This document shows, piece by piece, positions 17,790-64,000 of a stretch of DNA of 64,000 nt. Each line of letters opens with the position of its first letter. Positions within the stretch are counted from its first letter, which is position 1. The notes below the pieces were generated by a model. It worked only from the letters and a program-made list of their open reading frames with translations. It made no database searches and was not told the origin of the DNA. A program made the translations under genes and the position numbers. The stretch comes from Ilex aquifolium (lineage: Eukaryota; Streptophyta; Magnoliopsida; Aquifoliales; Aquifoliaceae): positions 2,615,501 through 2,679,500 of the forward strand of contig OX637394.1 of assembly GCA_951799425.1 (NCBI GenBank), written 5' to 3'.

Positions 17790-17996
17790 GTTCCGTTTGG
17801 TACGATGAAAAAATGGAAGGATAGAAAGTTGGAAGGATGGAAAGTGGGAATGATAGATAAAATATTATGTTTGTTAAGGAAGAAAAAGTAGACGGATTAT
17901 TTTTCCTTCCAACTCACTAAAATTAATCCCTCTAAAATCGGAAGGAAAGTGGATGGAAAATTAATTATTTGTGTTGAGATGTATCTTATTTATTTA

Positions 17997-22443: not shown

Positions 22444-22519
22444 TATATATATATTTTAAAAAAATTTAAAAATAAAAAAAATAAAAAATAAAAAAAATAA
22501 AAAATAAAAAATAAAAATA

Positions 22520-26369: not shown

Positions 26370-29300
26370 ATGAGGACTCTCTTTCCTTCCGAGTCTTGTA
26401 AAGAAACACAGCTCAATGCTATCAATCCACAATCATGGCTCCAGGTTGAAAGAGGGAAGCTTTCTAAACTCTCATATCAGACCCCATCTTCCATGTAAGT
26501 TCTCCATTTTCAGTTTTCCTGAAAGCATTTTGAACAAGGGAAAATTTTCGTGAAATTAAATTCTGCATATTGTGTTTGATATTTGTAGAGAATCTCTTAT
26601 CAAAGTCCCGGAGCCACCGATTCTTCCATTCTTTAAACCTGTTGATTATGTAGAAGTTTTAGCTAAAATTCATGAAGAACTCGAGTCATGTCCTCCACAT
26701 GAGAGGTCGAGTCTCTATTTGTTGCAGTTTCAGGTCTTTAAGGGCCTTGGTGAAGTCAAACTAATGCGGAGGAGCCTTCGTTCGGCTTGGCTGAAGGCAA
26801 GTACTGTTCAAGAGAAACTTGTCTTTGGAGCATGGTTAAAGTATGAGAAGCCAGGTGAAGAGCTCATCTCTGACTTGCTTTGTTCTTGTGGTAAATGTGC
26901 AAAGGAGTTCGTGATGATAGACATTGCCTCTGAACTTTCCACTCATGTAAATATTACTTCCCCTATAGTTATGGTACCAGATAGGAGCAGCGTTCCAAAA
27001 AATGTGACTTTTCATATTGGAGATGAGAAAATAGATTGTGACAGGCAGAAGATTGCCGGACTTTCAGCTCCATTTCATGCCATGCTTAATGGCTGTTTTA
27101 CAGAGTCACTTAGAGAGGATATAGATTTGTCTCAAAACAATATTTCCCCTTTGGGTATGAGGGTGATCAATGACTTCAGCCTAACAGGCAGTTTAAATGA
27201 AGTTTCACCCAACCTTTTGTTGGAGATATTATTATTTGCCAACAAATTTTGCTGTGAAAAGCTCAAGGATGCTTGTGGCAGAAAACTTGCTTCTCTGATT
27301 TCCTCCAGACAAGATGCTGTGGAACTCATGGAATATGCTCTTGAATTGAATTGCCCTGTCCTTGCTGTATCATGTTTGCAAGTGTTTCTACGTGAACTCC
27401 CCGACTCTCTTAATGACAGTAAGATAGTTGAATTATTAAGCAATGCTAACAGGCAACAAAGATCAATTATGGTTGGTCCAGCCTCATATTCCCTCTACAG
27501 TTTATTAAGTGAAGTTGCCATGAACCTAGATCCCAAATCAGATAAAGCAACTCTTTTCTTGGAACGTTTGGTAGACTCTGCTGAAAGTACCCGACATAAA
27601 ATGGTGGTATACCATCAGTTGGGATTTGTAAGACTCCTGAGGAAAGAATATGATGAAGCTGAGAGGCTCTTTGAGGTGGCTTTAAATGCGGGCCATGTAT
27701 ATTCTGTCGTTGGATTGGCTAGATTGGGTGGCATTAAGGGCCATAAACTTTGGTCTTATGAGAAACTCAATTCTGTCATTTCCTCTGTTACTCCACTGGG
27801 ATGGATGTATCAGGAGAGGTCACTATACTGTGAAGGTGATAAGAGGTGGGAAGACCTTCTGAAAGCGACCGAGTTGGACCCAACACTTACTTACCCCTAC
27901 ATGTATCGAGCTGCATCCTTGATGAGAAAACAAAATGTTGAAGCTGCCCTTGCAGAAATAAATCGTGTTCTTGGGTTCAAACTGGCATTAGAATGCTTGG
28001 AACTCCGATTTTGTTTCTATCTGGCTCTTGAGAACTACCAATCAGCATTTTGTGATGTTCAAGCCATTCTTACCCTTTGTCCCGGTTATAGGATGTTTGA
28101 GGGACGAGTTGCAGCATCCCAATTGCGTACTCTTGTGCGTGAACATGTTGAGAATTGGACAACTGCAGATTGTTGGCTCCAACTGTATGATCGATGGTCT
28201 TCAGTTGATGATATCGGATCCCTCTCTGTGATATACCAGATGCTTGAGTCTGATGCAGCGAAAGGAGTTCTTTACTTTAGACAGTCTTTGCTTCTCCTAA
28301 GGTACGTTCTAGTTATTTTTCTTTTTCCTGATGTTTGGCAATAATTAACTGAGTTATATATAAAAGTAATTATTTCAATGGTCTATTATCCAACACTAGA
28401 GTTATTATTTCTGCAAGACGTGTATAAGGCAAATCATATCGTAATAGCGATATTTTACACAAATAAATAGTTAGACTAAGTGAAGCCCTATATCATGAAG
28501 TAGTCTACAGTCACCTGTTGTCCTGATTGCCAATATATTTTCTCTATCCAATACTTTTGCCAAGGAGCTTTTTATCAATGTGGCACCTCTGTCTGTGTAT
28601 GACTGTTAGTGGCTTGGAATCTTCTGATAAGTTCCATTTTTTTTCCTGACAATGTTCAAAGAAACATTTTTTATTTGGGAAGCCATAACAATTGGTATTT
28701 TGTTACTAGAAACTTCAATTGTCTATCTATCTTATGACCAGCTTTACTTGGCATAACTGCTAGACTCAAAATATATTGCACGCTTGCACCCACACGCTAT
28801 GGAGAAGCCTTGTTCATATACTTCTCCATGCCTGTAATTTGGAGAGTTGCCAGGTCCAACACCTCATATCTATGTTAGACTGAACACCTGTGGTTGTTGC
28901 TGCAATCAATATCTTCGTAACACGCATTAGATCTCCACATCGAAGTTGCTTTTAAATTTTCCCACTCATATTCCAGTTTTTTTGGATTCTAAGTAAGTTT
29001 TGGCGACAAATGGTTTTTGTATCCCGATTTTGTGTGCCCTGATGAGTCTCTGTGGATTTTTCGTATACAGAAAACGATTTCGTGGTATGCTCATCTTCTT
29101 AGATATAGCTTTTTAATTTGGCAGGCCAATTAGAAACTAATCTTGATCTCTTCCTCCAGTTTTTTATTATTTAACTGCCACCACCACCCCAAGGAGATGT
29201 CTATGGGTATATGTAGCTGAATGTCTTGCCCATTATTGTCTGCATATAGAATAACAGAAACAGAAAAACTTACCTTATTTTAAGCTCATTCTATGCTTGA

Positions 29301-31697
29301 TCAGATTGAACTGTCCCGAAGCAGCCATGCGAAGTTTACAGTTGGCTTGCCAGCATGCATCTAGTGAACATGAACGTTTGGTATATGAGGGATGGATCTT
29401 GTATGATACTGGTCATTGTGAAGAAGGACTACGAAAAGCAGAGGAGTCTATTAGCCAGAAGAGATCTTTTGAGGCCTTCTTTCTGAAAGCTTATGCATTG
29501 GCTGACTCTAGCCAGGATTCATCTTGTTCTTCTACTGTTGTATCTCTTCTTGAAGATGCCTTGAAGTGCCCCTCAGATAGGCTTCGCAAAGGTCAGGTAT
29601 GATTTTTCTTTACCCGAGACAGCCGCAACATGTAAGAAGATTGACCTTTAATTGTCAGGTACAGTTCTAGATGGTAGAAAGAGAGTAGTAGAAGGTAAGT
29701 ATTGCCCGGTTGAATAGGTCTTGCTATAAGAAATGTATTGAAGAGCGTACTTAACAACAACCATCTGGCATGCTTACTATGTGAGATCTAGTTTTAGACT
29801 GAAACCAAGTAACTGCCGTAGTGAGGTGACTATACATGTAATGTCAAATAAGGAGCCTAAGGAGTAAAAAGTTTCTGAGGCTACAAGTAGCATGAAAAGA
29901 ACTTGTGGTTAAAAAGATGGGAAGATGAGCTCTTGGTGTTAGATTGTGAATATGAAAGCTGGAAACAAAATCATAACAAAATATATAATGGAAGCTGCAC
30001 AAAAGTCCAGATTATGGTAGTGCAATGTTGCAAAAGTATTCTAATAAGCTTCTAAGGTTTAGTAGTACATAAATTTGAGTTCCGTCAAAGAAAAGTAGAA
30101 GGCAAAGAGTTGAGTTTTAGATTACATTTTGTGCAAATAATGCCGAAGTGGCTGAAAATTCCTTGAGTTGTGTCTTTTTCTTAAGAAAAATGAAAAGGTG
30201 CATATAAAATACAGACTGGAAATCATAAATCTCATATATAGGGCGCTTAATTTGCCTGTTGGACACTTGTGAGCTGTGGGAGACCATGCCTTCTATTTGG
30301 TTCGTTGACAATGTAATATGCGTGCCTCAATCCCATCATCCATGTGTTGTAAGTCTTTCTCAAGAAAAGAAAAAACATTAAATAAGGACTAACTGGAAAT
30401 CATATATGTGATATATAGGGTGCTTATGCCTGCACCAGACACTTAAAAATCCAACACCTCTAATCATCTTCCTATCATTCAATATGGGCAGGCCTTGAAC
30501 AATCTTGGAAGTGTTTTTGTTGACTGTGGGAAGCTAGATTTGGCAGCTGATTGCTACATTAATGCCCTTAAAATCCAGCACACCCGTGCCCACCAGGGCC
30601 TCGCTCGTGTCCATTTCCTTAGAAATGATAAGAATGCTGCATACGAGGAGATGACCAAATTGATTGAGAAGGCGCAGAACAATGCATCTGCCTATGAGAA
30701 GAGGTCAGAGTACTGTGAACGTGAACTCGCAAAGGAAGATCTAGAGATGGTCACTCGCTTAGATCCCCTCCGGGTTTATCCTTATAGATACCGAGCTGCA
30801 GGTTTGAATTTCTTGTTCATTTTGGTTTCTGTTTCTAATGTTTTATGAAAAACGTCAGCATAAAGAATAACCGAAGCAACCAGATCAGACAAATTGGACT
30901 TCTGTAGACACTGAGTGAAAAGTTAAGAATAACATCCCATCATATCCTATTTTTCCTAAGAAGCACTACTTTTCTTTACCTTTGCTCCTGATTCCTCTAT
31001 CCACCCAGTCGTCCCAAAATCAGGGAAAAAGAAAGAAAAAAGGAGAAAAGGGGGGGGGGGGGAGGCGTTGGCGTTTTTTTGTGGCAAGTTTTACCTGCTA
31101 GCTTTTTTACTTTTTCCATCCAACTGTATGTTTATGTTCTTTCTAAAAGTTTCTTCAGTTGAAATATTGCTCTGAAGAAATTGCCATTATTATGAATTAC
31201 TCCATATCAGTAATTCTGGACCTTCTGATTGATAGTTACCCTTTAACATGTAATACTATTCAGGTAGACAAAAGGACATTAAGACTGCCACCCGTCCTCT
31301 TCTTTTCCCAACAATTTAAATATGTCAAGTTGGATGTATAAGTTGTGTTTTGCTCACTGAGGTTGAGGTGCTTGTAGTATATTTTAAAAATGGTTCAAAT
31401 GATTTACTAGATGGCAACCATTATCTTGAATTCTTCATGTTGGCTGATATTGAGCTGGAATTGGTGGTTATAACAGTGTTGATGGACAATCATAAGGAGA
31501 AGGAAGCCATAGAGGAATTATCAAGGGCAATTGCATTCAAAGCAGACCTTCACCTTCTACACCTCCGGGCTGCATTCCACGAGCACATTGGCGATGTTCT
31601 AGGTGCCCTGCGAGATTGTCGAGCTGCTCTCTCTGTTGACCCCAACCATCAAGAGATGCTGGAACTTCATAGTCGTGTAAACAGCCAAGAACCATGA
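26370..31697 (+). CDS. EOL1: ETO1-like (EOL) BTB-TPR adaptor, regulator of ethylene synthesis
   Basis: Coding exons 26370-26494, 26589-28301, 29305-29596, 30492-30801 and 31477-31697 join in frame to 886 residues, close to the usual 880-950. The start reads MRTLFPSESCKETQLNAINP. IESLIKVPEPPILPFFKPVD follows the first intron, as in ETO1/EOL proteins. A BTB domain begins at NVTFHIGDEKIDC (about residue 180) and runs to about 280. TPR-like helices fill the remainder, such as YHQLGFVRLLRKEYDEAERL, ALNNLGSVFVDCGKLDLAAD and the end LRAAFHEHIGDVLGALRDCR. ETO1 and its paralogues act as CUL3 ubiquitin ligase adaptors that bind type 2 ACC synthases through the TPR part and promote their degradation, restraining ethylene production. 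It looks intact. EOL1 rather than EOL2 or ETO1 is chosen from the N-terminus and is the less certain part. Confidence 0.93.
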
Positions 31698-34272: not shown

Positions 34273-36713
34273 ATGAATCCTTCAGACCAAGTTAAAGAGG
34301 AGTACCCAGGATTGAATTTATCAGGGTCCGGTGACCCGCTAATGATGCCACCGCCACAGCCGATGGAGGGGCTTCATGACATTGGACCTCCACCATTCCT
34401 AACCAAAACCTTTGACATGGTGGATGATCCAACCATTGATCACATTGTTTCCTGGGGCAGAGGAGGCCAAAGCTTTGTTGTTTGGGACCCTCATGGCTTC
34501 TCCACCAATCTCCTCCCTAGATACTTCAAGCACAACAACTTCTCAAGCTTTGTCAGGCAGCTAAACACTTATGTAAGTACTCTGTTTAATTGATGTCTTA
34601 TTCTATTTCTTGCCTTCTTTTTTCAAATCTAATTGTAGTTCTGTTTGTTTTGAAATGACATGGAACATAGTTCAAATGGAATAAAGAAATATGCCTTCTT
34701 ATAATTTTTATTTTTTTGTGGCTAGTGTTTATACAAGTTCTTCAATGTGTCACATTCCTTTTCTGTAACTATGGGGACTCACTGACTGTGCATTTGAATT
34801 CCTTTTAAGTTATAATGACCGTTCATATGAGTTACTAAAGCTTCTTCATCAAATCACTTCCCAAAAAAGATGAAATGGTGTACCTTATTATAGTAGCTGA
34901 AACAGAGGATTCCAGTGCTACATTACAATATCTGATTTTTTTATGGCACTATGAACATCTCTCTCTTTACCCTTTGGATTATTTTTTATTGGATTTCCTC
35001 ATTTTTTTTTCTTCTTTTGCCTTCTTTAAGCAACAAAATCAATTAACCTTATACATATACTAGTGAATTATGTGTGTTTCTTTCATTTTTCTTATGTTTT
35101 ATTTACATTTCTCCTTCCTCAATTTTCTGACTGTGGACGTGTCCTTAACTTTTAAAACGTACAAAAAAACTGGGATACAAAATAGGAGTAGGGGTGTTCA
35201 AATTGTCGATTAGCCGCAATTTCTTACTCTATCCGACTATATTGAACGATTAGCCAAAAAAATCGAGTAAAAATGCAAAACAGTTTTTGGTCTTCCAATT
35301 AAATCGGGTAGAAATGTGGAATAACCATTAATTTCTGTATTCCTACCCTACCCTACCCCCATTAATTGATATATATATAAACTAAAAACCCTAATTCTCT
35401 AACCATATGGTTTAAACTTAAAATAATTGTTATTGTATTTGTGCAACAATTATGATGGATTGATGTTTATACTTTCTTGTGTTTTATTGTAGTTGTTGTT
35501 GTAATTGTTTTAGGTTTTAGTGTTATTAGTTTATCGTGTTGTTAAATTAGTGCTTATAATTTAATTGAATTGTTAAAATGATCCAAAAATTAATAACTAC
35601 AAAAGTGTTCACCAGATTTTCTACCCGATTAATTTGGCTAGAAGTCGGGTAGGAATACCACACTTGATCGAGTAGGATAAGCCAAGAAAAAATTATTTCG
35701 CAAAGTATCGGGTAAGAAGACGAAAGATCATATTTCCTACCCGTAGGGTAGGGTGAACACCCCTAGGAGATAGTGCAAGCCATTGGTACTAGCAGATAAG
35801 CTATAAATCTAATCTGTTCCATGTTCTTTTTGTAATATGTTTCTGCCTTCTTGCGTGAAGCCTTATGAGAGTTTTGGCTCTAATCATAAACTTGTTAGCC
35901 CTTGAACTTTGCGCTAAATATTGAAATTATTTCCTTCAGGGCTTCAGGAAGATTGATCCAGACAGATGGGAGTTCGCCAATGAAGCATTTCTAAAGGGTC
36001 AGAAGCATCTTCTGAGGACTATTAGGAGAAGAAAGGGACCTTCTCAGCCTTCTCCACAACCCACTCTTGGTGTTTGTGTTGAAGTTGGACAGTTTGGTTT
36101 AGACAGAGAAGTTGATACTCTGAAGCGCGACAAGCAGGTCTTAACGATGGAACTTGTGAATCTTAGACAGCAACAGAAGAATACCAGGGCTCAGCTTCAA
36201 GCCATGGAGCTAAAGCTACAAGGGACTGAGAAGAGGCAACAACAAATGATGAATTTCTTAGCAAAAGCTATGCAAAATCCTGTATTTATTCAACAATTAG
36301 TCCAGCAAAAAGAGAAAAGAAAGGAACTTGAAGAGGCTATTACGAAGAAAAGGCCACGACCAATTGATCAATGGCCTAGTGGAGAATCAAGCCAAAGTGG
36401 TGACAGACTAGATCTCATTAAGGCTGAGCCTCTAGAATTTGGAGATCCTTACGGGTATCAAGTGTCTGACCTGCAGGCACTTGCTTTAGAAATGCAGGGA
36501 TTTGGTAGAGGAAGAAGGGAGCAAGAGCAAGAACATGAAGAGCTAGAACAACTTGAGGGTGAGAATAGGGAACTTGATGAGGGATTCTGGGAAGAGTTAT
36601 TGAATGAGGAGTTTGATGAAGAATTGGGAATTACTGGGAACAAAGAAGATGAAGAGGAGGATGTGAATGTCTTGGGTGATAGGTTGGGGTTTTCGGGTTC
36701 AAGCCCGAAATAG
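34273..36713 (+). CDS. HSFA6B: Class A heat stress transcription factor (A6/A7 type)
   Basis: Two coding exons, 34273-34572 and 35940-36713, encode 357 residues; the intron falls after VRQLNTY, the conserved HSF position. The DNA-binding domain spans about residues 39-132 ([18 protein letters not shown] to [10 protein letters not shown]). The HR-A/B oligomerisation coiled coil spans about 150-220. A basic nuclear signal, KKRPRP, lies near 236-241. The acidic C-terminus carries an AHA activator motif, [13 protein letters not shown] (about 313-325). Class A factors trimerise and activate chaperone genes after heat through heat-shock elements. The upstream region has such elements, suggesting heat induction or autoregulation. 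The AHA motif and [10 protein letters not shown] start fit A6b or A7a; the exact subgroup is a judgement. The intron carries a MITE. Confidence 0.9.
35189..35765. mobile_element. MITE in the HSF intron, TAGGGGTGTTCA ends
   Basis: The left end TAGGGGTGTTCA is repeated inverted at the right end as TGAACACCCCTA. The 577 bp interior is AT-rich with gggtag motifs near the right side and contains no frame. Flanks share only a partial match (TAGGAG), so the target duplication and the superfamily are uncertain; hAT-like ends are possible. Confidence 0.65.
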
Positions 36714-41133: not shown

Positions 41134-41302
41134 TGTTAAGTGTAGAAGATTAACATAATATTAGAGAGAAACAGAGAGAGGTAAAAACTTAACCTAGCTC
41201 TCATACATCACTTGTATTTATAGTTAACTCACAATAATAAGAATTACACATACACCCTCTTACTATTAACAATTTACACATACTACCATAATATTCTTAA
41301 CA
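41134..41302 (-). mobile_element. Solo LTR of the Ty1-copia family found at 57911-62420
   Basis: The 169 bp sequence begins TGTTAAG and ends CTTAACA and is nearly the same as both LTRs of the complete element (shared words gagagaaacagagagaggt, catacatcacttgtattta and cacatacaccctcttacta). The 5-mer AACCC flanks both sides (41129-41133 and 41303-41307). No internal element sequence adjoins it. The strand is given by analogy with the complete copy. Confidence 0.9.
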
Positions 41303-42531: not shown

Positions 42532-45500
42532 ATGTTTCCTGTGGTCATGTCTAACTCAACTTCTTTATCTGAGGAAGCTAGTGCATCTTCTTGTACTAAA
42601 ATTCAGGACTTTGGAAGCTTAAATCCAATGGTTCAAATCATTTCTCCTCAGCAGACACAGAAGATCAAAAAGAAAAGAAACCTCCCTGGAAACCCAGGTA
42701 AAATTCTTCATATGTAACTAGTAATTTTCTAAGTTTTGATCTTGATTTCGTGTGGGTAATTCTTTTAATGGTGATGCAGATCCAGATGCAGAAGTGATTG
42801 CGTTATCTCCCAAGACCTTACTGGCTACCAATAGATTTGTGTGTGAGATCTGCAACAAGGGCTTTCAGAGAGACCAGAATCTTCAACTTCACAGGAGAGG
42901 CCACAACCTTCCATGGAAGCTGAAGCAAAGAAACAGCAAAGAGATAAAAAAGAAGGCATATGTGTGCCCTGAACCTACCTGTGTTCACCACCATCCTTCT
43001 AGGGCTCTTGGTGACCTTACTGGAATCAAGAAACACTACTGCAGAAAACATGGGGAAAAGAAATGGAAGTGTGAGAAATGTTCAAAGATCTATGCAGTTC
43101 AATCGGACTGGAAGGCTCACTCAAAAACATGTGGAACAAGAGAGTATAGATGTGATTGTGGAACTCTTTTCTCCAGGTAAATTTTTGGTTATTTCGGTTC
43201 ATTCTGAAGTAATGTTTCCTTTGCGTTTGTCTATATGTCTGTGTTCTATAGTCCCTCAATCCTTCCATCTTTGTTTTGATGAGATATATGATATATCTTT
43301 GTCATTCATGAGTGTGAACTCTAACGAGACTCCTAGTGGATGTTGGTCTTTTTGCTTGAAGTTGAAAGCCTCATGTCCTTAGGAGGAGGGTCTTTGTTTT
43401 TGTTTTCGTGCACTTTGTTTTGTTGCTGTTCTTACACCAGAGTGGTATAAGCTTTATAGAAATGCATATGTTGCCTTAATGCATTGACAGGTAACATGGA
43501 AATACACAACCATTATATAGAAGGAGATCTGTTATTGAAGACATTGCAAGAAAAAACTGAAAGAAAATATCTTTGAAATCTGAACGTGCAAATTTGATAT
43601 CTTAAAGAACACAGAGCGATCAAGATAATCTTTTGTTTTATTCATATACTGTACCACCTTTGATTCAATGACTAGCTAGTCTTAGTTTCTATCATGTTCT
43701 CACACTGAATGCTGAACGTCTTAGGTTTCCTCCTTCCCAATCTTTGTCGGATGGGCTGAGGAGATCAGGAAGGGGAAAGTCTATGGTTTGAAGGAATAGC
43801 CAATTATGCGCCAGACTCATGTCCATGAGAAACATACTCTTAAATAAATCTACAATTCCAGTTGGTTAAATGATTTTTGCAAGTCTTGAAATTGGCAAAC
43901 ATTTCCCTTCAAGGGTTTTTTTTTTCTCTCTCTTTTATCTTTTTAATTTTTTGTTGACCTTTTGGTATTTAGTTAGTAGTGGAGTGTCTGCAGTCTCAAA
44001 GCAATGATGGATTTCTTCTCTTGTCTAAGAAAAAGTTATAGGGGTTTGAGTACTTTTGGGTGTTCATGGAGGGTAACACTATTTTACCTTCAGAGCCCTG
44101 TAAAACTCTGAACTACTACATCATCATCAACAAAACTGATAAATCTGCAAAAACATCTGTGAGATGTGGTGTTGTTTTCTTCGCACTCATCATTAAAAAT
44201 CAGGGTTTGTTTTTCTGGCCTGAAACATATGGGGTTTGAATTGCATATAAATGATTTACATTGGCTTCGTGCATGAACTCGAATTTCAAAAAGCTTTTGT
44301 CATCCCAGTTTACCAATTTTTGAATCTTTAAGGCAATATAATCAGTGCCTGCCTGCACAAACATCAGTCAACTCTCTCTCTCTCTTCTCACACACATACA
44401 CAATGCAATATAGTTTAATTTTGACCCATATAAAAAATTCCTCCTGTGTTACAGAAGCTTTATGACTTTTGAGTCTGTATCCATTACGCATGCATGATAT
44501 GTATCTCAGCTTCTTTTTATAACGAGGAATTGACGAATATAAATGTTTTGCATCACCACTGCATTGTCTACCATTCCCGTACACAGCTTAGGCTTGGCCT
44601 CTTTCTGTACTAACTGAGACAAAACCTTCTCCCCAAAGGTTTCTCCCTAAATTTTGTTTCACAGCTTTCTTTGTGTTCTCTTCAGTATTCATCTTACTTG
44701 CTTAAAAGAAAACACATAACTAAACTTCACTACATTCGTTTAATCCACAACCTAAAAGGAAAACTATTAAAATAAACATTGCATTATATTCAAAAAAGAA
44801 GCCAAGTGCATAAGTGCCCTGCTGTTGCGAGATTTGGAGAATTTAAGATATACCCTACACGTCAAGAGGCTGTTCCGGCGGCTTGAATCTTTGACGTTGA
44901 AGTCAAATCATTATAGAATAATTTACCGCCGAGCCAAGGCATACCCTCAAACATTGCATTGTATCCTGCCAAGAATTTCCATGCTTAGTTATTCTATGAT
45001 CACATAATTTCTTGTTTGTTTCCTGTTGCGTGGATTCGATGATACTAGTTTGTTCTTTCATAAAATTATGTCTTAGCATGAGTTTCAAATTTTACAGGAA
45101 GGATAGCTTCATCACCCATAGAGCATTCTGTGATGCTTTAGCTGAAGAAAGTGCAAGACTCTCTGCAAACTCAACATTAACAACAATCACAAACCCTACT
45201 GGCCAAACCTTTCATCTTCAACCACAAACCCCATTCTCAGTCTTCCCTTTCACAACCCAACACCAACAAGAAGAGCAGCACCACCACTTCCCAAACCCAC
45301 AAACCCACATCTCTCTGAACAATCCCTGGGATCATTCACCTCAAAACCCTAACCCTAATCCAAACCCAGTTCATATCAAGCCTGAAACTATTCATCTTCC
45401 CATGTCTTTACCATTCTACCAAGACCCACCGCAGCCAACTCTCAAGAGCTTGATGACTTCACCCTTCCAAAACCTCCACGTCAGCACACAGCCCACCTCC

Positions 45501-45923
45501 AACACTGCCACCACAGCCCACCTCTCCGCCACCGCACTCCTCCAAAAGGCTGCAACGCTTGGTGCACAAACGGTTGGTCAAGTGCCTTCTACTGTGACGC
45601 AGTTGGATATAAGCACAATGGGTCACATGAGCACAAGAATCTCGCCGGAATACCTGAGTTTCACGCCGGAAAACTTTGTTACATGGCAGAAAAGTGACCG
45701 TCTGACCAGGGACTTTCTGGGTTTGACAGGAGATCATCAGCGAGGTGGTGGTGGCCGTGGTGGTGGCAATGGGAATGTTGATGTTAACTTGAACGTGAGG
45801 AATCTGCTATCGTTCACGGGGGATGTAGAATTCCCGACATATGACCGTGACCACTCACTGTTGAAGCATCAAAGCTTTGGTTTTACCGAGCCTGCAGCCT
45901 CGGAAACTTGGGGGAATTGTTAA
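42532..45923 (+). CDS. IDD: INDETERMINATE-domain (IDD) C2H2 zinc finger transcription factor
   Basis: Coding exons 42532-42697, 42780-43176 and 45098-45923 join in frame to 462 residues. A basic KIKKKRNLPGNP motif precedes the ID domain. Finger 1 is FVCEICNKGFQRDQNLQLHR; finger 2 starts YVCPEPTCVHHHPSRALGDL; fingers 3 and 4 follow from KWKCEKCSKIYAVQSDWKAH and EYRCDCGTLFSRKDSFITHR (ID domain about 70-195). The C-terminal half has the family motifs LSATALLQKAATLGAQ and TRDFLGL plus Gln/Pro/Asn-rich and Gly-rich stretches. Such proteins are nuclear and partner with DELLA, SHORT-ROOT or SCARECROW GRAS proteins; the C-terminal motifs are typical of the JKD/IDD4/IDD5 branch. Small departures from the usual sequence are HHHP (often HHDP) and KIYAV (often KRYAV). 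The subfamily member is not resolved. Confidence 0.93.
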
Positions 45924-50607: not shown

Positions 50608-53600
50608 TCAAACCAATGACTTAGCCCCATCAAAATTAATTCCCAAGTATTGATCCAACACATTCTGGTAGGCCTGAAACAGAACACATCAAAACCTGTG
50701 TTTAGATCCTTTTCATCAAGTGTCAGTGTCATAAAAAACAGCCTTGTGGCTCATTTAAAATTTCCTTATGTATCACCCATAAGTTCTATCGTATTTTAGA
50801 TCTTAAAATTCAGGCAGTAAAAGGATTTTATACATAATCCTGTAATAGCTTCCATATGAGGATGGAATTGGGCATAAAGATGCATTCGCAGCTTAACCAT
50901 CATCTAACTTGAAAAGAAAAGATAAAGAAGCAAGAAGAGAACAAGAGTCCTTTCTGGTAACAAACATATAGAACTTTACAATTTTCTTAAGCAGGAATAG
51001 ATGACGAACAATTTTCAAGGCAACACCGAGTCCACAAGTCATTTCCATGGCATCAAAACTGCATAAGATCATAAAGAATCTAGAAAAACTGCTTCGGTAT
51101 CTGGGCCAGTTAATGTTCTCTGCAGTGAAGGGCCACTCATGGTTGTGCCAACTTCATGCTTTCTCTTGCTTCTAATCCAAAAGGCCCATCATAATAACAC
51201 AGTCCAACTGACATGCTACGTTATTTATCTTCTAAAAAAGTAAGTAAATGCATGAGAAGATCCATGGTCTTGATACTTTGACATAAAGGTATTTTGTTTC
51301 GGGACTCCTTTGCCAACCTCACCCACCCACTCCCACTCCCACCCCACCCCCAAAGCCAACTGCTCATGGGGGAATCCTGTTCTTTTTGGTGGATATGACT
51401 CCTTTTTTTTTTTTGGGTGGGTTATGACATACATACAAAATAACTAAGGATTTACCCAATAGTCTAGCAATAAGATTGTTGAATACCTGAAGCGCAAAGG
51501 ACTCTTTCCCATTCAAAAGTGCATCCATTGCAGCAAACTGATCATCAAATACACCATAAAAAATCTGGTAGAATTGGTTCCTGAAAACATAATTGGTAAA
51601 TTACACACCGAAGTCATGTGCATTGTCACATCGTCTTTGCAAAAAATGAAATGAACATGTACCGATCTTCTTCAGCAGTCAGTTGATCCATCTCATCGAA
51701 TTTCCGCGTAAGAATTTCTGCCCCCACTGGTGAAAGCAAGTGCAATATCAAAGCCTCCAAAGTTCTCGGAAAGTTGTGCTGAAAAATAGAAAAACTAAAA
51801 TGATGCAATGGTAGAAAAAGAAACAAGGCAATTATTCAACACGGAAATAGTGTAATCATAAACTGGCTGGATCTACAAGTACATAACTGACAAGAAGAAA
51901 ATGAATCACTGGGGAGTAGCAGCAGCAGCAGCTACTACTGATAATGGCAAAACCTTGTAAATAAATATACCAGTTGAACACAAACGAAGTGGTCTCAGGC
52001 CAAAAAGTGGGGAAGAAGATAAATAAAACCAAACCGAACAAAAAAAAACTAAACTAATCTAAACAAAATAAAATGGGTTCAACATACCAGCCATGAAAGT
52101 ATTAACAGGAAAGAGAACGAATTGAAAGGAACATTTAATTTAGCAAAAATACAGACATGGAAACATTGATCAGAAGTGATGGGGCCTCGTTTAATTTAGC
52201 AAAAATACAGAATCTCCTACCAAAAGAAAGTTAAAATTGATTTTGCTGCTATATATGTTCCCTAGCAAAGCGAACTCATTGTATAGGTTATCTAGGTGGG
52301 CAATGAATCAAAGGAATGAAGATCATCATTCCAGATGCAAGGAACGAGTATTATCCCCTAAGTAATCCAAATTCTTCAACTTAATCATGATCAACTGTGT
52401 TCCCCTACTGTTGCATACTGCATCCTTAAGCATTGTACATCTTTCTTTCTTTTATCTGGATTTTTTTTTTTTTAATATAGATAACACACCATCAACCGAT
52501 AATTGTAAATCTCCTTTCGGAAGTAAAGAAGGCGTGCCAAGTCACAATAGATATAAAGGAATGGAATAAATTTAACAGGACCACACCATAAATTACAATA
52601 CTATTTGCCCAATTATAAAGGAACAATTAAGGTCAGGCTTTGAAAGAGAGCATGAACTCACAGCCATGGCAAGAAAAACTCTTTGAAGAGTAAGCGGTTG
52701 GAGGTTCCAAAGTATACTAGCAACTGGATTCTCTTCCAAGTAAAATATATTCGCTTGAAAAGTTTTCTTAGCTTCATCTTTCTCTCCCATTTCTGGATAA
52801 TTTGTTGAGGTGGAATCACTTGGCTGGCTTTGATTGCCAACATTAACATGGTCATGGACTAGAGAAATAAGTTCATGAAGAGATTGAAGCGCAAGTGGTT
52901 CCAGTTCGTGCAACATAATCTTTTCCTTCAGCATAGTTGCTTTTGAAATTTTGCTGCCATAGTTCTGATCCAAATTATGCTCAACAAGATCTGGTAAATA
53001 AATTAACAAGTATGTAAAATATTAACATCAACATGAATGTAAGCAACAAATTTCCCTTTAATTGTGAGAAACAATGACAGGAAAAAGGACCAGTTGCCTT
53101 CCCCTAAAAAAAACTCAGGATAATTCGATACATTTTACTAACCCCCAGCCAAAACAACACATGGGCATTCAGTTTTTTTTTTTCTTTTTGTAAGTGGGGG
53201 ACGTGGTGATTAAGCCAACCTGCATTTCCATTATTGGGCTGGCCAATTGTGTTTGCCATTTTAACCGTCGAAACCATATGCAGCATTTCGTTCTGCCCTG
53301 GTCATAAAAGAAAGAAATGTCATTTATAGTGCTGAATAATAAACTTCTACTAAAAGATTACTCGGATAAGCATTTGACAATAAATTTAATTTTATAGATA
53401 CAATTATGAATACTATCCTTAAATATGAATGCCTGAAAAGGAATTAGTTCAAACGTGCAAGTCAAAGTTAGCAAACCAAAACAATGAAGTTCATCCAGGA
53501 TAAAATGTATAATATGACCATAAAGACTCTTCGAAATATTGACAGCAGCAATCCACACAGGAAGAGGACAGTTAACAATTCAAATAGAACTGCAAAGGCT

Positions 53601-55577
53601 ATCGGATAAAACTCCAAGAACTGCAAAGGCTATCAGATAAAACTCCAACCAGCAATTGCAGGAAACGTATGTGATTACCCATTATTGCATGAGAATAATT
53701 TTTTTCTCTCCTCTGGAAGCAAGAGTTACCATCAATGTTGCAAACTCAAAATCGCAAAGATATACAAAAAAGTGTTGACAAATTTTATATAACCAACAAT
53801 TTTCCAAATGGAACAGCATTGCAGAAACTCTTGTTCAAATCAACCCAGCATTATTAAACCTATTTGCAGAAATTGAGACTAAAGTTGAAAAATGCCTACC
53901 ATTTCTTTGTCCGTCAGTCTTCAATTTTAATCATTTCAACGATCAAACATGGAGAAAAAGTTTAAAAAAAAAAGTATTAGCTTATAGATTAGCTAGTGAT
54001 TAAAAAAAGCAAAAAAAAAAAAATGAAAGGAAAACCATTTTGAAAGGTACAAGGACCACAACTACCTTTTTAATATCCTGCGAAGATAATATGCATCCAT
54101 GTGCTCGGGCATGGTAGACATCATTTCGGACCGCCACCAATAGTTAACAGCAATGGTTAAATTGTCACTGTCCACTTGGTGGAACCTGGGGTATTAATAT
54201 TTACAAAATAAAAATAAAAATAAGAAGTCTGATGGCTATTACTACTATAATACAAAGCATTAACAAATAAAATGGGATGACGAATCCTGTTATAAGTGGG
54301 CGAGAGGTACAACACAAATGAAACTAAGTCTATTAAGCTCGTAAGCTTTGCAAGCAGTGAATCCTGCTCATTTATCACTGATCTTGTCTATATTGCAATG
54401 TACAAAAAAACACAATGGTTGTCTGATCCTTCACCAAAAAACCGTCCCTTAAGATATCCTACAGAGGTTGCAGTGATTTCTCAAGTATTCTACAGTGTAC
54501 ATCCTTCACCTGCCCAGAAAATGTTCATTTATTTGTGCACAAACGTCAGTTTGGCAAAACAACTCTCAGCAAAAATTTTGTTAAATATTGGCGCATAAAT
54601 AAAGTTACTCCATTGTGACCTCCACACCAAGGATTCAAGTTGCGGAAAAAAAATCCCCACATCTGGGGTTCAGGTTACGTCTCCATACGACCCTTTAGAT
54701 CCCATTGCTGCAGGAGCCTTGTGCACTGGCCGCCCCTTAGTGGATACATTCAACATATAGCATCTTAGTCTTGTAAATGAGTTCCTTCTAAAGGGCAAGA
54801 CTAAGTAAGTACATGTTTGCATGACTAGAAGTCTTGATAGAAGCCATGGACGGAAAGCAAGAATAGAGATAAAAAAACCAAGGAGAAGTAATCCAGAGCA
54901 CGTCCAACTGATGCCTACTTTCAGAAACCCAATAACTGAACTACAAATCCCAGAAACAGGACATTTCAAAAACCAACAAAAAAGAAAGATGAGTAATGAC
55001 TCATTGCCCAAGAATAATCCAACATAAACCAATGGCAATATTTGCATAAGCAAGGCTTAAAATTTCGTTTCGGTGCATAGTTTCAGTTAGTTTAGAAACA
55101 TAAACGTTTTAGTAATATTTTAGAAACATTTCAAAAGCAAGATGAAAATACAGAAAAGTTCTGAAATTTTGTTTCCGAAACACATCAAAACATAAGAATT
55201 TCAATATTCAATTAATAATTCGTTTCGGTTTCCAAGGAAACACCATTTCGAAACGAAATTAGTTCCTTGTGCATAAGCAGGTTTGAGCGTGGCGCATCAA
55301 GCTATAGTTTTATTGTCTGCGTTGAGGACCATTCATGAATCTTGTGATAACAGTAAAAGACTGTAAAGTCACACGTGGAAGGACTCTGAAATTTTGAAAA
55401 AGACAATAATTTGTAAATTGAGGTAGAGAGAATGATATGAAGATATACAATCCAACAAAGGAGAGATCCATGATAAGTTGCAAAGACAAGAATAGATGCA
55501 TAAGGACAGTGCAGGTAATTAAAAGTAAGCAAAGCTGCTAATAACTTCTTGTGCATTGCTATCTTAACACCCTCCCC

Positions 55578-55608
<31 letters not shown>

Positions 55609-58600
55609 AAAAAAAACATCATCTATTCTCAAATTCCAAATGTTGCAAGAACCAATTACATCTGCCGCAAAACTTGTTAGTAAGTAATTGCTTCTGTGAC
55701 TATTTTAAAATGTAAAATGATTTCCATATACCAAATGTACAAGTCAAAAAAATTGAAATTACTGATGCAGAAATTTCACAACAAAATCATATGTTAAAGC
55801 AAGTTAAATTCAAGAATAAGCTGCTGCTCAACATTTTCTACTCTCTCCCTCCCCTACACTTACATACCATAGGCTGGCACAAGAATTCATATTAAATCAA
55901 TAATATATGATCAAACCAAATTCATTTTGAGAGAAGATGCTCTAAATTCTTTCACCGAGTTTCATTAACTTCTAAAGCTAATGCAATATGCAAACTTATT
56001 GTGGTGTACATCTTGGGTTAATTAAAATGAGACTTTTTAAGATTAAAGGAAAAAGGAGAATAAATTTTTAAGATCATTTGGAACTAATTAATTTTTAAAG
56101 CTCACCAGCCTTCGGGAATGAAAAGTGCATCGCCTGCATGAAGAATAACTTTCTGGGAATACTCCATCACCCGAGCTGCTCTTGGATGAACAGAAATATC
56201 AGGTTTTTCTAATGCCACAGCACTACAAAAAAATAAAGAAGAAAGTCAAAATAGAACACTGAAAAAGAGCCCTAAATCTCAGTAACAAATTAGAAGCACT
56301 TTATTCCTATTCTCAAGGACTAGAGAAAGAAACTAAAATTTACTACCTATTATAAATACAGAGAATAACATACCAGTGGTTTGAGGCCTCCCCATATATA
56401 GGCATTGGATACAAGAAGGAGCTTGCAGAAGGGGGCCATAAGACAACTGAAAAGCAAATAATGTTGTCCACCAATAGACAAACACATACACACACAGAGA
56501 ATCAGTTCATATATTATGGCCTTAAAACACATTCGGAATGTGAAATCTGGTAACTATAATAAAAAAATGTAATAACATGAAATTTGCAGGTGTAAAAGCA
56601 CAATCTAAAATATTTCTCTTTTGTTCCTTTCTTTAGTTCATAACTTGATATAAATGTAAACATACTTCATTGGAAAACACCCAAAAAAAAACCTCTACCA
56701 CAATACCAAAGAGGCCAAAGCATTCCAACTTATTCAAACAAAAAAAGGACAGAGGAAGGATGAAGTGTGGTCCACACACCTGAAGCACAAAGCACCATGG
56801 AAATGAAAACCATCAAACCAAAACTCCAACAGCTCTACTAACAACTATTCCACTGAGAATATGGTTGATTCATATCCTCTTTGATGGATATAAAATGAAC
56901 TTAGACAAGGTTCTACATAAGTTGAAGAAGACACAATTTTGCGCCAGCATACAATCCAAAAGGTGAACGTTTGAAAGGAATATCAATTACCAACTGAAAT
57001 TCCCAACCATATAGACATCTCTTAAGCATAAAGCACCAGCCTTCTGTATCCTTCATCCATGGGATGCATCCATGAGGATGCTGAATTCCCAGAGGTAAAG
57101 GTCAAATTCCAAATATTTTCCAAGATTTCCAACAAATGTAAGGAGATCGAATCGAGATCGAATCAAGATCGGCAAGAAAAATAGGGGTGTACATTCTAAT
57201 TGTTGTCGGCGTGGAAGCACTCTCATCTAAGCCCATGATTCCATGATATCAGTGCAGTGAGAGTTCCTTTTAATCAGACACTAATAAAACATCTTCCTCA
57301 AAGGACTGCTTGTCATTTAGAGAAGTTGTGATTGAAAAAATCATGGAATCTTACAAGCATGGATCGAAATATCGTTTCGAAGTACCGTTTCAGTCAGCTC
57401 AAAAACGGAAACATTTCGGAAACGCAATGGAAACGCAGAAAAAATATGAAAACATATGGAAACACGTAGAAACACAAATACAATCCATTTATTTATAAAG
57501 ATAAGCTTAATAATTGATTAATTCAATATATTTATTGGGTTAACATCCATTTATACAAGAATAAATTTAAATTGGAGGGAAAAAAAGGATTGACATGAGG
57601 CAGAAATCACTTAAATTAGTTTCAAACACTTAATTTTTATCAAGTAAACATATTTTTACATAATATTAAGGTCTCATAATACATATGAAATGCTAATGAG
57701 TACATACTTACATGGCTACATCCATCCCCCTAATTTATTAATTTAAATTGCGTCTTTAAATTAATAAATAATATTATTTCATTAATATTAAAATCATTGT
57801 ATACACAATTTGTACACACATAAATCATTAATTCTAGATATTTAACAAATAAAGTATAATTAATAAAATGACTTGCAGTTATTTAATATACCAATTTAAC
57901 AAATAATAATTGTTAAGTTTAGATGATTAACACAATATTAGAGAGAAACAGAGAGAGGTTAAAACTTAACCTAGCTCTCATACATCACTTGTATTTATAG
58001 TTAACTCACACTAATAAGAATTACACATACACCCTCTTACTATAGACAATTTACACATACTACTTTAATACTCTTAATACTCCCCCTCAAGCTGGACTAT
58101 ATATATCATGTAATCCAAGCTTGGAACAAATCGATGTAAGACGTGTACGACTCAATACTTTGGTAAACATATCTGCAAGTTGATCTTCAGATTTCACAAA
58201 TGGAGTTGTAATCTCTCCAGCTACTATCTTGTCCCGAATAAAGTGACAATCAACCTCAATATGTTTGGTTCTCTCGTGAAACACCGGATTGGCAGCGATA
58301 TGGATAGCTGTCTGGTTGTCACAGAACAACTGTAAAGGATGTTGAACTGGAAGCCCAATTTCCTGGAGGAAGTGTAGTAGCCAAGTCAACTCACTCGTCG
58401 TATGCGCCATTGCCCTATACTCAGCCTCAGCACTGGATCTCGCTACCACGGATTGTTTCTTACTTTTCCATGAGACAACGTTACCTCCTAAGAAAGTACA
58501 ATAACCAGTGATTGATCTCCGATCAGAAGGAGAGTCAGCCCAATCAGCATCTGAGAAACCTTCCACTCTAAGATGTCCATTAGCTCGATATAACAATCCA

Positions 58601-61600
58601 AGTCCAGGAGCTCGTTTGAGATATTGCAGAATATGAGTAACTGCCTCCCAATGTGGTACTCTAGGACACCCCATGAACTGACTTACTATACTGACTGCAT
58701 AGGAAATATCCGGTCGAGTAATAGTGAGATAATTGAGCTTCCCAACCAATCTGCGATACCAACCCGGATTCCCAAACAGTGCACCATCATCCATCAATAG
58801 TTTTTGATTCGAATCCATAGGAACATCAATCGGTCTGCCACCCAGTAAACCTGCTTCCTCTAGCATGTCAAGTACATATTTCCTCTGCGATAAACAAATA
58901 CCCTGTTTAGATCGAGCCATTTCAATTCCCAAGAAATACCTGAGTTTTCTCAAATCCTTAGTATGAAATCGATCTTGCAAGAAGATTTTTAACTTGGCAA
59001 TCCCCTCATAATCATTTCCAGTGATCACAATATCATCTACATAGACCACTAATAAAACATATTCAACATCCGTCTGTCTATGAAACACAGAATGGTCTGT
59101 TTGACATCGAAGAAGACCAAACTCTAAAATTGCATCTGAAAACTTACCAAACCATGCCCTCGGTGACTGCTTCAAACCATACAAAGATTTCTTTAGCCGA
59201 CATACACTCTTACCATACTCCCCCTGAGCAATAAACCCAGGTAGCTGCTCCATGTATACCTCTTCAACCAAGTCACCATGGAGGAAGGCATTCTTGATGT
59301 CTAACTGAAACAAGGGCCAATCAAGATTAGCAGCTAAAGAAATCAAGATACGAACTAAGGAAATTTTGGCAACAGGAGAGAAAGTCTCCTCATAATCAAC
59401 ACCATAAGTCTGAGTAAAGCCCTTCGCAACAAGCCGGGCTTTGAGACGCTCCACAGAACCATCCAGATGAAATTTAACAGTATACACCCAACGACAGCCA
59501 ACAGTTCGTTTACCGGGAGGTAAAGGAACGAGATCCCAAGTCCCATTATGATGTAAGGCATCCATCTCATCCTCCACAGCTTTCCTTCAACCCGGATCAG
59601 ATAATACATCCTGTAAACGCTTAGGAATAGATATAGTAGATAATTGAGAGGTAAAACAAGAGAAGACAGGAGACAAGACATCATATGAAACAAAATGAGC
59701 AATGGGATGATTAGTAACACACGAACGAGTACCTTTTCGAAGAGCAATAGGTAGAGAGTCTAAATTACCTGATGGACCAGGATCAGCAGACGGCAAGGAA
59801 GACGGTACAGGCACCTCAGTCGATGGTCGAGGACGATGAGAGTATACACAAAGAGGTAAAGTAGATGGTAACACAGTAGGCAGCGGAATATCTGAAGATG
59901 AGGGAAGAGATGGTGATATAAGAGATGACCCAAAGTCCAGATCCAGAGGCTGAGAAGGTGCTGGAAAATATGGAACAGATTCCTCAAACGTGACATCAAT
60001 AAAGTATCGTCGCAGAGAACGACTATAGCAACGATACCCCTTCTGTGTGCGGGAATAACCAATAAATACACATTTGGTAGCTCGAGGGTCAAGTTTATCA
60101 AACCCAGGACCCAAATTGTGAACATAACAGACACATCCAAAAACCTTAGGTGGTAAGGAAAATAAGGGCTTACCAGGAAAAAGGACAGAATATGGACTTT
60201 GCCCGTTTAACACAGAGGATGGCATACGGTTAATAAGGTGACAAGCAGTAAGAACAGCATCACTCCAAAAATATCGGGGAATATTCATCTGGAATAACAA
60301 GGCACGGGTGACTTCCAACAAATGACGGTTTTTGCGTTCAGCAACACCGTTCTGTGGAGATGTGTAAGCACAGGAAGTCTGATGAATAATGCCAGTTTTA
60401 CTAAGATAAGCTGAAAAAGGATCAGATTCATATTCCCGAGCATTATCAGAACGTAAAATACGTATACGACAACCATACTGAGTTTTTATTTCTTTACGAA
60501 AGGTCTCAAATATAGAGAATAATTCAGACCGAGCTTTCATCAAAAACAACCAAGTCACACGAGAATAGTCATCCACAAATGACACAAAATAAGGATATTT
60601 ATTAGATGAAATATTCTTTATTGGACCTCATACATCAAAATGTACCAACTCAAATGGACTAGACACACGATTATTGACTTTAGACTGAAATGATACACGG
60701 TGATGCTTACTAAGTTGACAAGCTTCACAAGACAAAGATGACACACCACTAAGACTGGGAACTTGGCGCTTCAGATTCTGGAGAGAGGGATGTCCAAGAC
60801 GACAGTGCCATTGAAAAGGAGACAACGAGGTCTGTAAAGCTCGAGTAGGTGAATCAAAGTCAAAGTAATATAGACCACCAGCTTCATGCCCTGTACCAAT
60901 CTTCCTCTTCGTCTTGAGATCCTGAAAGACACAATAAGAGGGATAAAAGGTTACAGAACAATTAAGAGACCGGGTAATCTTACTAATGGAAAGTAAACTA
61001 AAAAGAAACTGAGGAACAAATAACACGGAAGATAGGGACATATCAGGACTCAAGTGAGTAGTCCCCAGACCTGAAACTTTAGAACAAGTACCATTAACAA
61101 GAGTAATACTACGTGTGGAAATAGCAGACTGATAAGTAGAAAAAATATCAGACGCACCAGTCATGTGGTCAGAAGTACCAGAGTCTATGATCCAGGGACT
61201 GCAAGTGGAGGACAACAAACAAGTGGAATCAATACCTGACTGGGCAAAAGTAGCAGTAGAGAGAGATGGGACAGCCTGTTGCTGGGACAGGAGTTGAGCA
61301 TACTCCGCTCGTGTAATAGTAACCGACCCAGTGTCTTGCTTGGGTTCCATAACAGTGCAACAAATAGGTGTCTGAACACTGGACAAAACTTGAACAATGT
61401 GCTAGGTGCCTGAACCGGACCAAAAATAGTGGTTGAAGGCTATTGAAAAGCTGAACCAGGCTGGAAAAATGGACTGAACCACTGAACCGGGCTGGAAAAC
61501 CGGACTGGACCACTGAACCGGGCTGGAAAACTGGACTGGACCGCTGAACCGGGCAGGCTGAGCCCTCTAGACCACTGAACCGGGTTGGAAAAGGAAGCTG

Positions 61601-64000
61601 GACCACTGAACCGGACCGGTTCGACTTGCTGGATCACTGAACCGGACCGGTTTGACTTCCTGAACCTCTGAACCCGAGTCAAAATTGTCTGAACCGGACT
61701 GAACCACTGCCTAAAGCTAAACCGAGACCAAATCGGGATTGATCCGGTCTAGAGTGGATCGTGGGCTGGACCCGAAGTGGGTTGGATCAGATCTGGGTTG
61801 ACCCGAAGTGGGTTGGATCAGATCTGGGTTGACCCGAAATGGGTCGGGTTTGGACTTTGTCTTCTTCGTTGGTTAGGGTTCCAGAGAACCCTCTTCTGCG
61901 ACTGCGCCTCACCACCAACGACGAATGACAAACCACCACAACAAACACGCCACCACCACGACGAACACCAAACGACGGCGAGAAGGCCACCACAACTAGC
62001 GACACACCACCACGGTAACACGATAGCTTCGACGACACCACCACAACCACGACAGTGCCACCACCACCACAATGGAGATCACCACCACACGCGACAACAC
62101 CACACCAACAGACCAACAACACCACTGTAATGAACGACAACACCACACCAACAGACCACCACCGGCAACAGTATTCCGACAAATACAGTACCACGAACAA
62201 AAAATTAATTTATTCAAAATATATATTTATGATCGTAATGCTCTGATATCATGTTAAGTTTAGATGATTAACACAATATTAGAGAGAAACAGAGAGAGGT
62301 TAAAACTTAACATAACTCTCATACATCACTTGTATTTATAGTTAACTCACACTAATAAGAATTACACATACACCCTCTTACTATAGACAATTTACACATA
62401 CTACTCTAATACTCTTAACAATAATAACATAAAAGAATAATTACAAAAAAGAAAAAAAAATAATGAAGGGTATTAAATGAAATTAATGGTACTTATGTAT
62501 ACTTAAAAATTAAAAGTTATAATGTAGTGGGGTATTAAATGTAATTTTTCATACTTATAACAAAAAAAAAAATACAAAAGTCAGAAGACTCGAGTCAGCC
62601 GTGAGTCTCGTGACTCTCTGTCACCCACGAACAAAGAAAGAGCCAGAGAGAAGAGAGAAAGGCGATGGCGATGGCGATGGCGATGCGATGCCGGTGTTGG
62701 GGAGAGAGAGAAGAATAAGAAGAACATACCTGGTAGCTCGTGGCTCGTAGGTCGTAGGTCTTAGGTCGCAGCGATGAAGACCTAAGTCACAAGCCCTAGA
62801 TCTGTGGAGAGGGAGGCTAGATTTGCTCAAATCTGGACTCAAAGAGGTAAGCTATTGAACTCTTCTCCTTCAATTTCTATTGTATAGCCTATAACTGTGT
62901 CTTTCTCTCTCTCTCTGATTTCATCTGGGTGTGCCTTTCTCTCTCTCTTCTCTTTGTTTTATTATTTTTTTTTGCTTGGAAGATCTAGACCTGTGTACAT
63001 GTGATTTCTGAAAAAATCTAAGATTTTTGTGTACATATAATCTCTGTTTTTTCCCCTTTTTTTTTGGCTTGAAGGACTTTGGCCTGGAGTTTCGTCGAAT
63101 CTATACACTGTTTCGACTGAAACAGTCCGACACAATGACATTTCGACCGAAACGTTGGAATTTTGAGATTCAAGTCATGTTTCGTATCGGTGTGTTGAAA
63201 ATTCAAAACGTTTCGGACGAATTGACATGACATTTCGATCCTTGCTTACAAGACAGTCTCAATGATGGATTCACTGATAACGAGTCAAATAGTTTCAACC
63301 ATCAGTCAAATCCTGACATGGATTTGACATTATGTGAACCGTATTAATGGCAAAGCCAGACAAAGAAACAAGACCTAATGCTCTCATTTTCATAATATCT
63401 TCATCTCTTTGTTTAATATTCCCCAGGACCAATACTCTAATCAAAATTTAAGGAGTTGCACAATAAGTCACATGAGCAACCCAAAATCATGGAATATTCT
63501 AAGTTGTTATCCAAATTGTAGTGAACAACCGGAAATTTTCACATTCTCATTTCTTTCTTTGATAAGAAAAAGTAGAAATATAAACTATAAAAGCATACAA
63601 TGAAAGCAATTACGTTCTAAAGAACAAAACATCTGTTATAATTCTTCCTCAAAAAGTCCATTGCACAAAACAAAGCCAGATTTTAAATTCCTAGGCCGAG
63701 AAAACCAACAAGATACAGTCATCAAAAGTCATTATGACCAATTTCCGTCCATCTTTTACTTTTTCTTTTTCTTTTTTGGTAAAACACGTCAATTTTTTTA
63801 ACTTACTACCAACAAAGCCTAACAAAAAAAAAAAACGATACAACCACAAGCTTACAAAGAGCACATGAGTGGAAAACAAGCTCCTTCAGTAATTGAGGAA
63901 TAACAAACCTTGTTTGCTTCCAGTGACTAAGCAAAGAAGGTTATGGTGTGGATCATAGTGAGTGCTTGATCTAGCTTGAGCGCTGTTCATCCACAAATTC
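50608..64000 (-). CDS. JMJ31: JmjC-domain Fe(II)/2-oxoglutarate oxygenase, JMJ31-like (5' end off window)
   Basis: Coding exons in transcript order: >64000-63909, 56446-56374, 56222-56106, 54185-54066, 53918-53900, 53292-53220, 52990-52662, 51778-51663, 51580-51487, 50673-50608. All join in frame and end after GINFDGAKSLV. The first exon carries NLWMNSAQARSSTHYDPHHN, where HYD is the HxD iron-binding pair. KQVVLWPPSASSFLYPMPIY spans the next junction. HAGDALFIPEGW then continues as FHQVDSDNLTIAVNYWWRSE, whose FHQV His is the third iron ligand. The helical C-terminal region (LTDKEM, HELEPLALQSLHELISLVHD, TLEALILHLLSPVGAEILTR) is kept. Plant JmjC proteins of this small class resemble protein or tRNA hydroxylases rather than large histone demethylases; the substrate is unknown to me. 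The JMJ31 (At5g19840) name is from memory. One exon is only 19 nt. Confidence 0.88.
53584..53649. repeat. 33 bp tandem duplication in a JmjC intron
   Basis: AACTGCAAAGGCTATC followed by GATAAAACTCCAA occurs twice in a row with a single G/A difference near the middle. The repeat lies between the 19 nt exon and the exon at 53292. Confidence 0.8.
55051..55269. mobile_element. 219 bp MITE with perfect 8 bp target duplication (hAT-like)
   Basis: The left end CAAGGCTTAAAATTTCGTTT and the reverse complement of the right end, CAAGGAACTAATTTCGTTTC, match well. Direct repeats TGCATAAG flank it (55043-55050 and 55270-55277). An 8 bp duplication with CAAGG ends supports a hAT-type origin. It lies in the JmjC intron between the exons at 56106 and 54185. 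Confidence 0.85.
55573..55617. repeat. Poly-C then poly-A homopolymer tract
   Basis: A run of more than 20 C is directly followed by about 18 A within the JmjC intron. Such junctions are prone to slippage and assembly error. Confidence 0.85.
57911..58079 (-). repeat. 3' LTR of the copia element
   Basis: 169 bp, starts TGTTAAG on the plus strand; paired with 62252-62420. Confidence 0.92.
58087..61386 (-). pseudogene. copia pol: protease, integrase, reverse transcriptase, RNase H with two in-frame stops
   Basis: The region reads in a single frame on the minus strand from 61386 to 58087 but is cut by TGA codons at 60630-60628 and 59589-59587. The first segment has the protease motif WIIDSGTSDHMTG and the pre-integrase HCRLGHPSLQNLKR. 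The second has the integrase core (FVDDYSRVTW, ILRSDNAREY, SPQNGVAERK). The third has the reverse transcriptase motif YVDDIVITG and the RNase H block SDADWADSPSDRRSITGY. Because no frameshift is present, decay is recent. The stops leave the element unable to make a full polyprotein without readthrough. Confidence 0.92.
61430..61690. repeat. Tandem repeat in the copia 5' internal region
   Basis: About seven to eight imperfect units of roughly 30-35 bp built on CCACTGAACCGGGCTGGAAA and ctgaaccggaccggtt. It replaces the position where gag would be expected. Confidence 0.75.
61740..62180. repeat. Low-complexity leader of the copia element
   Basis: Two copies of a block reading gttggatcagatctgggttg with accccgaa/acccgaagtg words lie at about 61780-61835. 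They are followed by an ACCACCA/CGACACCAC-rich tract (61915-62165). Long frames here encode only biased residues. Confidence 0.65.
62252..62420 (-). repeat. 5' LTR of the copia element
   Basis: 169 bp, partner of 57911-58079; on the minus strand it is followed directly by the primer-binding site. Confidence 0.92.

Follow-up and report, generated by a model that had tools for sequence, protein, structure and literature searches.

A hAT-like transposon with a Copia-superfamily retrotransposon nested inside it very probably occupies a pre-existing intron of an oxygenase gene in holly (Ilex aquifolium), and the whole is most likely spliced out with that intron. The gene lies on the minus strand at the end of the window, by which we mean the full 64,000-nt stretch of DNA that was analyzed. 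Its model comprises nine exons between 64000 and 50608, translating into 345 open codons followed by a stop; the 5' part of the gene is outside the window, and openness of the frame is shown from 64000 down only. All eight introns of the model have a GT donor and an AG acceptor. Exon boundaries were chosen by hand and are least sure beyond the JmjC domain, notably at exon 5, whose donor (GTTAAA) is weak. The parts of the gene are as follows.

63909 to 64000, minus strand: exon 1, running past the window end, with the HxD iron ligands (THYD) and the 2OG lysine (GSK), from translation and FIH alignment
56447 to 63908, minus strand: first visible intron, 7,462 nt, GT-AG, phase 1, read directly from the sequence
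56374 to 56446, minus strand: exon 2 (VVLWPPSASS...), from translation
56106 to 56222, minus strand: exon 3, from translation
54066 to 54185, minus strand: exon 4, with the third iron ligand (WFHQ), from translation
50608 to 53297, minus strand: exons 5 to 9 to the stop codon (53297-53266, 52990-52662, 51778-51663, 51580-51487, and 50673-50608), with boundaries that are the analyst's reading of the sequence

The earlier note had exons 1 and 2 joining in phase as K-Q-V-V-L-W, and this was borne out nearly to the base. On the minus strand the donor GT begins at 63908, after the exon end at 63909; the acceptor AG is 56448-56447, and the following exon begins at 56446, giving a phase-1 junction with the peptide GSKQ/VVLWPP. 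The interval 56446 to 63909 had been given as the intron; the locus is right, while those figures are the exon edges and the intron itself is 56447-63908.

Judged by its domains, the encoded protein is a Cupin_8/FIH-TYW5-JMJD5-like Fe(II)/2OG oxygenase. Against Pfam, the fragment encoded by exons 1 to 4 matched Cupin_8 (1.4e-37) and JmjC_2 (1.6e-5; 24.9 bits, above the cut-off of 22), and its score for JmjC (PF02373) was 19.6 bits, below the cut-off of 24. The same fragment matched 35 PDB sequences: GH14974p (presumably a Drosophila name), FIH, C2orf60 (which we take to be TYW5), JMJD5, and JMJD7; several of the matched JMJD5 entries were deposited as "Lysine-specific demethylase 8." In the FIH alignment, which runs gap-free over the 63909/56446 exon junction, H14, D16, and K29 of exon 1 stand opposite FIH 199, 201, and 214, which we take to be the iron and 2OG residues of FIH. 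The HxD...H ligands and the 2OG lysine expected of a JmjC/cupin Fe(II)/2OG oxygenase are present in alignment with FIH, in the motifs THYD, GSK, and WFHQ, the last supplying H96 as the third ligand. We take AtJMJ31 to be the name of the Arabidopsis counterpart. Neither of the marks of a KDM-type histone demethylase that we looked for, a PF02373 score above the cut-off and KDM-type homology, was found, in what is a partial test on a protein whose N-terminal part is missing. The domains and matches give no sign of a histone demethylase. In the part of one study drawn on here, plants have a JmjC domain-only group made up of AtJMJ20 and AtJMJ30 to AtJMJ32 (PMC9029850).

The outer element was recognized by its target site duplication (TSD) and terminal inverted repeats (TIRs), and lies within the first visible intron together with the element that it holds.

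57350 to 57357, no strand: outer TSD CTTACAAG, left copy, read directly
57358 to 63244, no strand: hAT-like element, 5,887 bp with the Copia element counted in, from the TSD and TIRs matched at 12/13
63245 to 63252, no strand: outer TSD CTTACAAG, right copy, read directly

Its TIRs, CATGGATCGAAAT and CAAGGATCGAAAT, match at 12 of 13 positions and are directly flanked by CTTACAAG, a word that occurs twice on the plus strand of the 64-kb window and nowhere beyond these two flanks. Without the Copia element and one copy of the inner TSD, the hAT-like element measures 1,372 bp. We scanned the window for identical 8-mers 80 to 10,000 bp apart accompanied by inverted 13-mers matching at 10/13 or better, with low-complexity words excluded. 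Twelve pairs were returned, with the hAT-like element the only one at 12/13, whereas in 30 first-order Markov samples pairs arose at a rate of 4.2 per window at 10 and 0.23 at 11, and never at 12 or above. Since the sole 12/13 pair has no equal in the Markov samples, we regard the outer element as real. One other pair, at 22056/26593 (an 8-bp repeat with ends matching at 11/13), was rejected: seven such pairs at 11 arose in the 30 Markov samples, and on inspection by eye the match between its ends goes no further.

No Pfam family matched any of the 23 ORF pieces of at least 30 aa in the arms of the hAT-like element at E values up to 0.1, and hence no hAT transposase or remnant of one was found there. 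The hAT label accordingly comes from the 8-bp duplication and the ends, and we write "hAT-like" rather than claim a proven hAT; a missing transposase is expected if the element is non-autonomous. A gene captured in the arms was rejected on the same result, no Pfam match in the 23 pieces. In its 8-bp TSD and short TIRs the outer element resembles non-autonomous hAT elements. CTTACAAG fits both fixed positions of nTnnnnAn, a consensus given for Hermes in the part of the source used here (PMC2803484), but the TSD of the related copy described below fits it only in part.

Two further copies elsewhere in the window, each with its own TSD, support both element-family calls.

55051 to 55269, no strand: in intron 3 of the host gene, a 219-bp element related to the outer one, with TSD TGCATAAG
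41134 to 41302, no strand: solo LTR belonging to the Copia family of the inner element and lying 17 kb from it, with TSD AACCC

The 219-bp relative has a perfect 8-bp duplication, TGCATAAG, which fits the Hermes consensus nTnnnnAn at position 7 only, and reads CAAGG on both ends. The left TIR of the outer element reads CATGG; the other three ends of the two elements read CAAGG. The relative is missing from the 12 scan pairs because its own ends match poorly past CAAGG. Comparison of the left ends of the two elements aligned them in the same register over positions 10 to 59, a fit equalled in 1 of 500 shuffles; the right ends aligned 13 positions off register (2 of 500 shuffles). Three other end comparisons were weaker (20, 14, and 123 of 500 shuffles), one of them being that of the outer element's own ends. 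Half of the GAAACG/CGTTTC motifs in the window (9/18) fall within the outer element and the 219-bp relative, outside the Copia element. By these resemblances, two related hAT-like copies occupy two introns of one gene. The solo LTR differs from one intronic LTR at 11 and from the other at 12 of the 169 sites; together with the intronic Copia, it implies at least two insertions of this Copia family in the window. Intron 3 also holds, at 55570-55616, a long stretch of C and then one of A (poly-U and then poly-G in the transcript), either real or an assembly artifact. A 31-bp tandem duplication lies at 53586-53648 in intron 4 of the host gene.

The inner element is a Copia retrotransposon on the same strand as the host gene, with the following parts.

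57906 to 57910, no strand: inner TSD ATAAT, left copy, read directly
57911 to 62420, minus strand: Copia-superfamily LTR retrotransposon, 4,510 bp, from LTRs and pol domains
57911 to 58079, minus strand: 3' LTR, with the purine tract GAGGGGGAGTA before it
58087 to 59577, minus strand: pol piece with RVT_2 reverse transcriptase (4.9e-68; Pfam)
59587 to 60585, minus strand: pol piece with SH3_retrovirus (6.3e-20) and rve (1.1e-7; Pfam)
60628 to 61386, minus strand: pol piece with Pol_BBD (8.4e-16) and gag_pre-integrs (3.7e-13; Pfam)
61451 to 61674, no strand: 31-bp tandem array (CTGAACCGGG...), at the expected place of gag
62252 to 62420, minus strand: 5' LTR, followed by the primer-binding-site-like TGATATCAGAGC
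62421 to 62425, no strand: inner TSD ATAAT, right copy, read directly

The two LTRs are 169 bp each and differ at four sites (4/169, about 2.4%). With only four events the range of any LTR date is wide, and no age is given. The right LTR has the ends TG...CA and the left TG...TA, a change that counts among the four differences. TGATATCAGAGC looks like the initiator-methionine primer-binding site found in Copia elements of plants. Integrase ahead of reverse transcriptase is the Copia order, and on the minus strand the piece with rve and SH3_retrovirus is upstream of the RVT_2 piece (the pieces were searched apart; the rve match, at 32.5 bits, is 0.1 bit under the cut-off of 32.6). The piece at 60628 to 61386 includes DSG, presumably a protease-like motif. 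All three pol pieces share one frame with in-frame stops between them, so this Copia copy is broken. A search of all 10 minus-strand ORF pieces of 61380-62251 returned no gag family; the three matches obtained there were at chance level and far under cut-off (PF20844, 0.037; PF13664, 0.077; PF06131, 0.096). The description of a hAT-type element with an 8-bp duplication holding a copia element with a 5-bp duplication thus stands, with CTTACAAG and ATAAT both intact and the outer element termed hAT-like.

The insertion had been described as splitting the catalytic core of the enzyme, and this the anatomy does not support. With its TSDs, the insert is set 656 and 903 nt in from the splice sites of an intron that has its own GT and AG; once it and a single TSD copy are removed computationally, 1,567 nt remain, with GT and AG unchanged. 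K29 and the third ligand, H96, are separated by introns of 7,462, 151, and 1,920 nt, and so further introns also fall between the catalytic residues. Given these distances and the 1,567 nt that remain, the insertion most likely lengthened a pre-existing intron and did not divide the domain; the greater age of that intron is read from the anatomy and not from an empty site.

The most probable course of events would start with a non-autonomous hAT-like transposon of about 1.4 kb entering an intron, about 1.6 kb long, that already existed. A Copia element would then have inserted into this transposon, leaving two nested, intact TSDs. The order of events had been called certain. What nesting establishes is that Copia entered a hAT-like copy, perhaps before that copy arrived here; arrival of the hAT-like element first and of Copia later at the present site would be the likelier order. 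A single event in which the composite of hAT-like element and Copia moved into the gene together is a rather unlikely alternative, with which the two TSDs are as compatible as they are with two arrivals; since both TSD pairs are perfect, decay cannot date the insertions apart. Joint arrival requires a 5.9-kb, cargo-laden non-autonomous element to transpose, and a second composite copy was not seen among 20 of the 25 direct-repeat families listed for the window.

After a hAT-like insertion followed by Copia, the 7.5 kb would most likely be transcribed in full and removed as one intron, with the transposons presumably silenced. The gene may tolerate its insert, as the earlier note had suggested; the open frame is consistent with tolerance. 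It is quite improbable that the gene is a dying copy, in which the insert blocks full-length expression and a paralogue does the work. The presence of a large sense-strand LTR element within a catalytic-domain intron would suit such a copy, but 345 codons remain open across the nine modeled exons and the catalytic residues are retained.

The main effect of the insert on an intron otherwise spliced out whole, if there is any, would be that the sense Copia LTR acts as an early poly(A) site, with loss of the third iron ligand. On the sense strand of the intron, all eight AATAAA hexamers are within the insert; the insert makes up 79% of the intron, and eight of eight inside it is therefore no significant excess. 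ATTAAA is divided evenly, with two of four in the insert and two of four in the host part. In plants, poly(A) hexamers taken by themselves carry little weight. The earlier note raised the prospect that the intron affects splicing, silencing, or polyadenylation of the gene, which is possible by analogy with RPP7/COPIA-R7 and IBM1. A silencing-gated switch, in which loss of heterochromatin makes transcripts end in or near the sense 5' LTR and yields a protein that lacks the third iron ligand, is quite improbable. Copia does lie on the gene's strand, with one AATAAA starting at 62214, 38 nt downstream of the 5' LTR, and another at 62963, some 540 nt upstream of it, and there are precedents in IBM1-S and the RPP7 ECL transcript (PMC11265718, PMC7529245). 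However, the enzyme gives no sign of being a histone demethylase, so that IBM1's feedback logic may not hold for it. It is very doubtful that a non-IBM1 JmjC gene has independently gained a transposon-built, silencing-sensing intron with transcripts ending in the Copia 5' LTR and the third ligand lost.

IBM1 is among the closest known comparisons. In the portions of PMC11265718 drawn on here, it is an H3K9 demethylase whose isoforms depend on methylation, the short one lacking the catalytic domain, and its intron 7 in Arabidopsis is long, methylated, and within the JmjC domain. The same portions report intronic mCHG in 27 of 65 IBM1 orthologues. These orthologues often have long methylated introns within or near the JmjC domain, and the methylated introns contain simple and transposon repeats. 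Intron lengths in orthologues include 7.3, 3.6 and 9.6 kb (cassava) and 27.2 kb (cacao), with position relative to the domain unstated in those portions (PMC11265718). The holly gene is like IBM1 and its orthologues in having a long, repeat-bearing intron in the JmjC domain; unlike the H3K9 demethylase IBM1, the holly enzyme is Cupin_8/FIH-like and is known here from sequence alone.

RPP7, in the part of PMC7529245 used here, is an NLR gene with COPIA-R7 in its first intron, where the 5' LTR has been demonstrated to be able to end the host transcript. Both genes have a Copia element in an intron, but termination at the LTR is shown for RPP7 and only possible in the holly gene. The holly Copia is nested in a hAT-like element, a feature not mentioned for COPIA-R7 in that part of the source (PMC7529245). 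Among Arabidopsis intragenic transposable elements (TEs), at least 80% are under 1 kb, and intronic TEs are tolerated and masked by silencing, according to the sections consulted of PMC4417168; the holly insert, at 5.9 kb, is unlike most of these. Transcripts joining TEs and genes have been reported at thousands of gene loci, in the part of that source drawn on here (PMC10241880). Our literature search for nested insertions in introns or JmjC genes recognized no such case, which does not show that there is none in print. The arrangement is well preserved, ordinary, and of a kind already known from plant genomes. IBM1 orthologues include introns of comparable and greater length, and the holly case leaves the general view unchanged; as a clean nested insertion between catalytic residues, it offers a test case for splicing across large sense-strand retrotransposons in plants.

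Over the whole window, Rfam at gathering thresholds gave no matches and ARAGORN no tRNA genes. Inverted repeat copies containing GTGCCTTCAGGCAC or its complement lie at 17987-18037 and 22403-22453. ORFs at 26572-31697, 36147-36713, and 42752-45923, which we take to represent an ETO1-like BTB/TPR protein, the end of a heat-shock factor, and a INDETERMINATE-type zinc finger, point to a gene-rich plant region.
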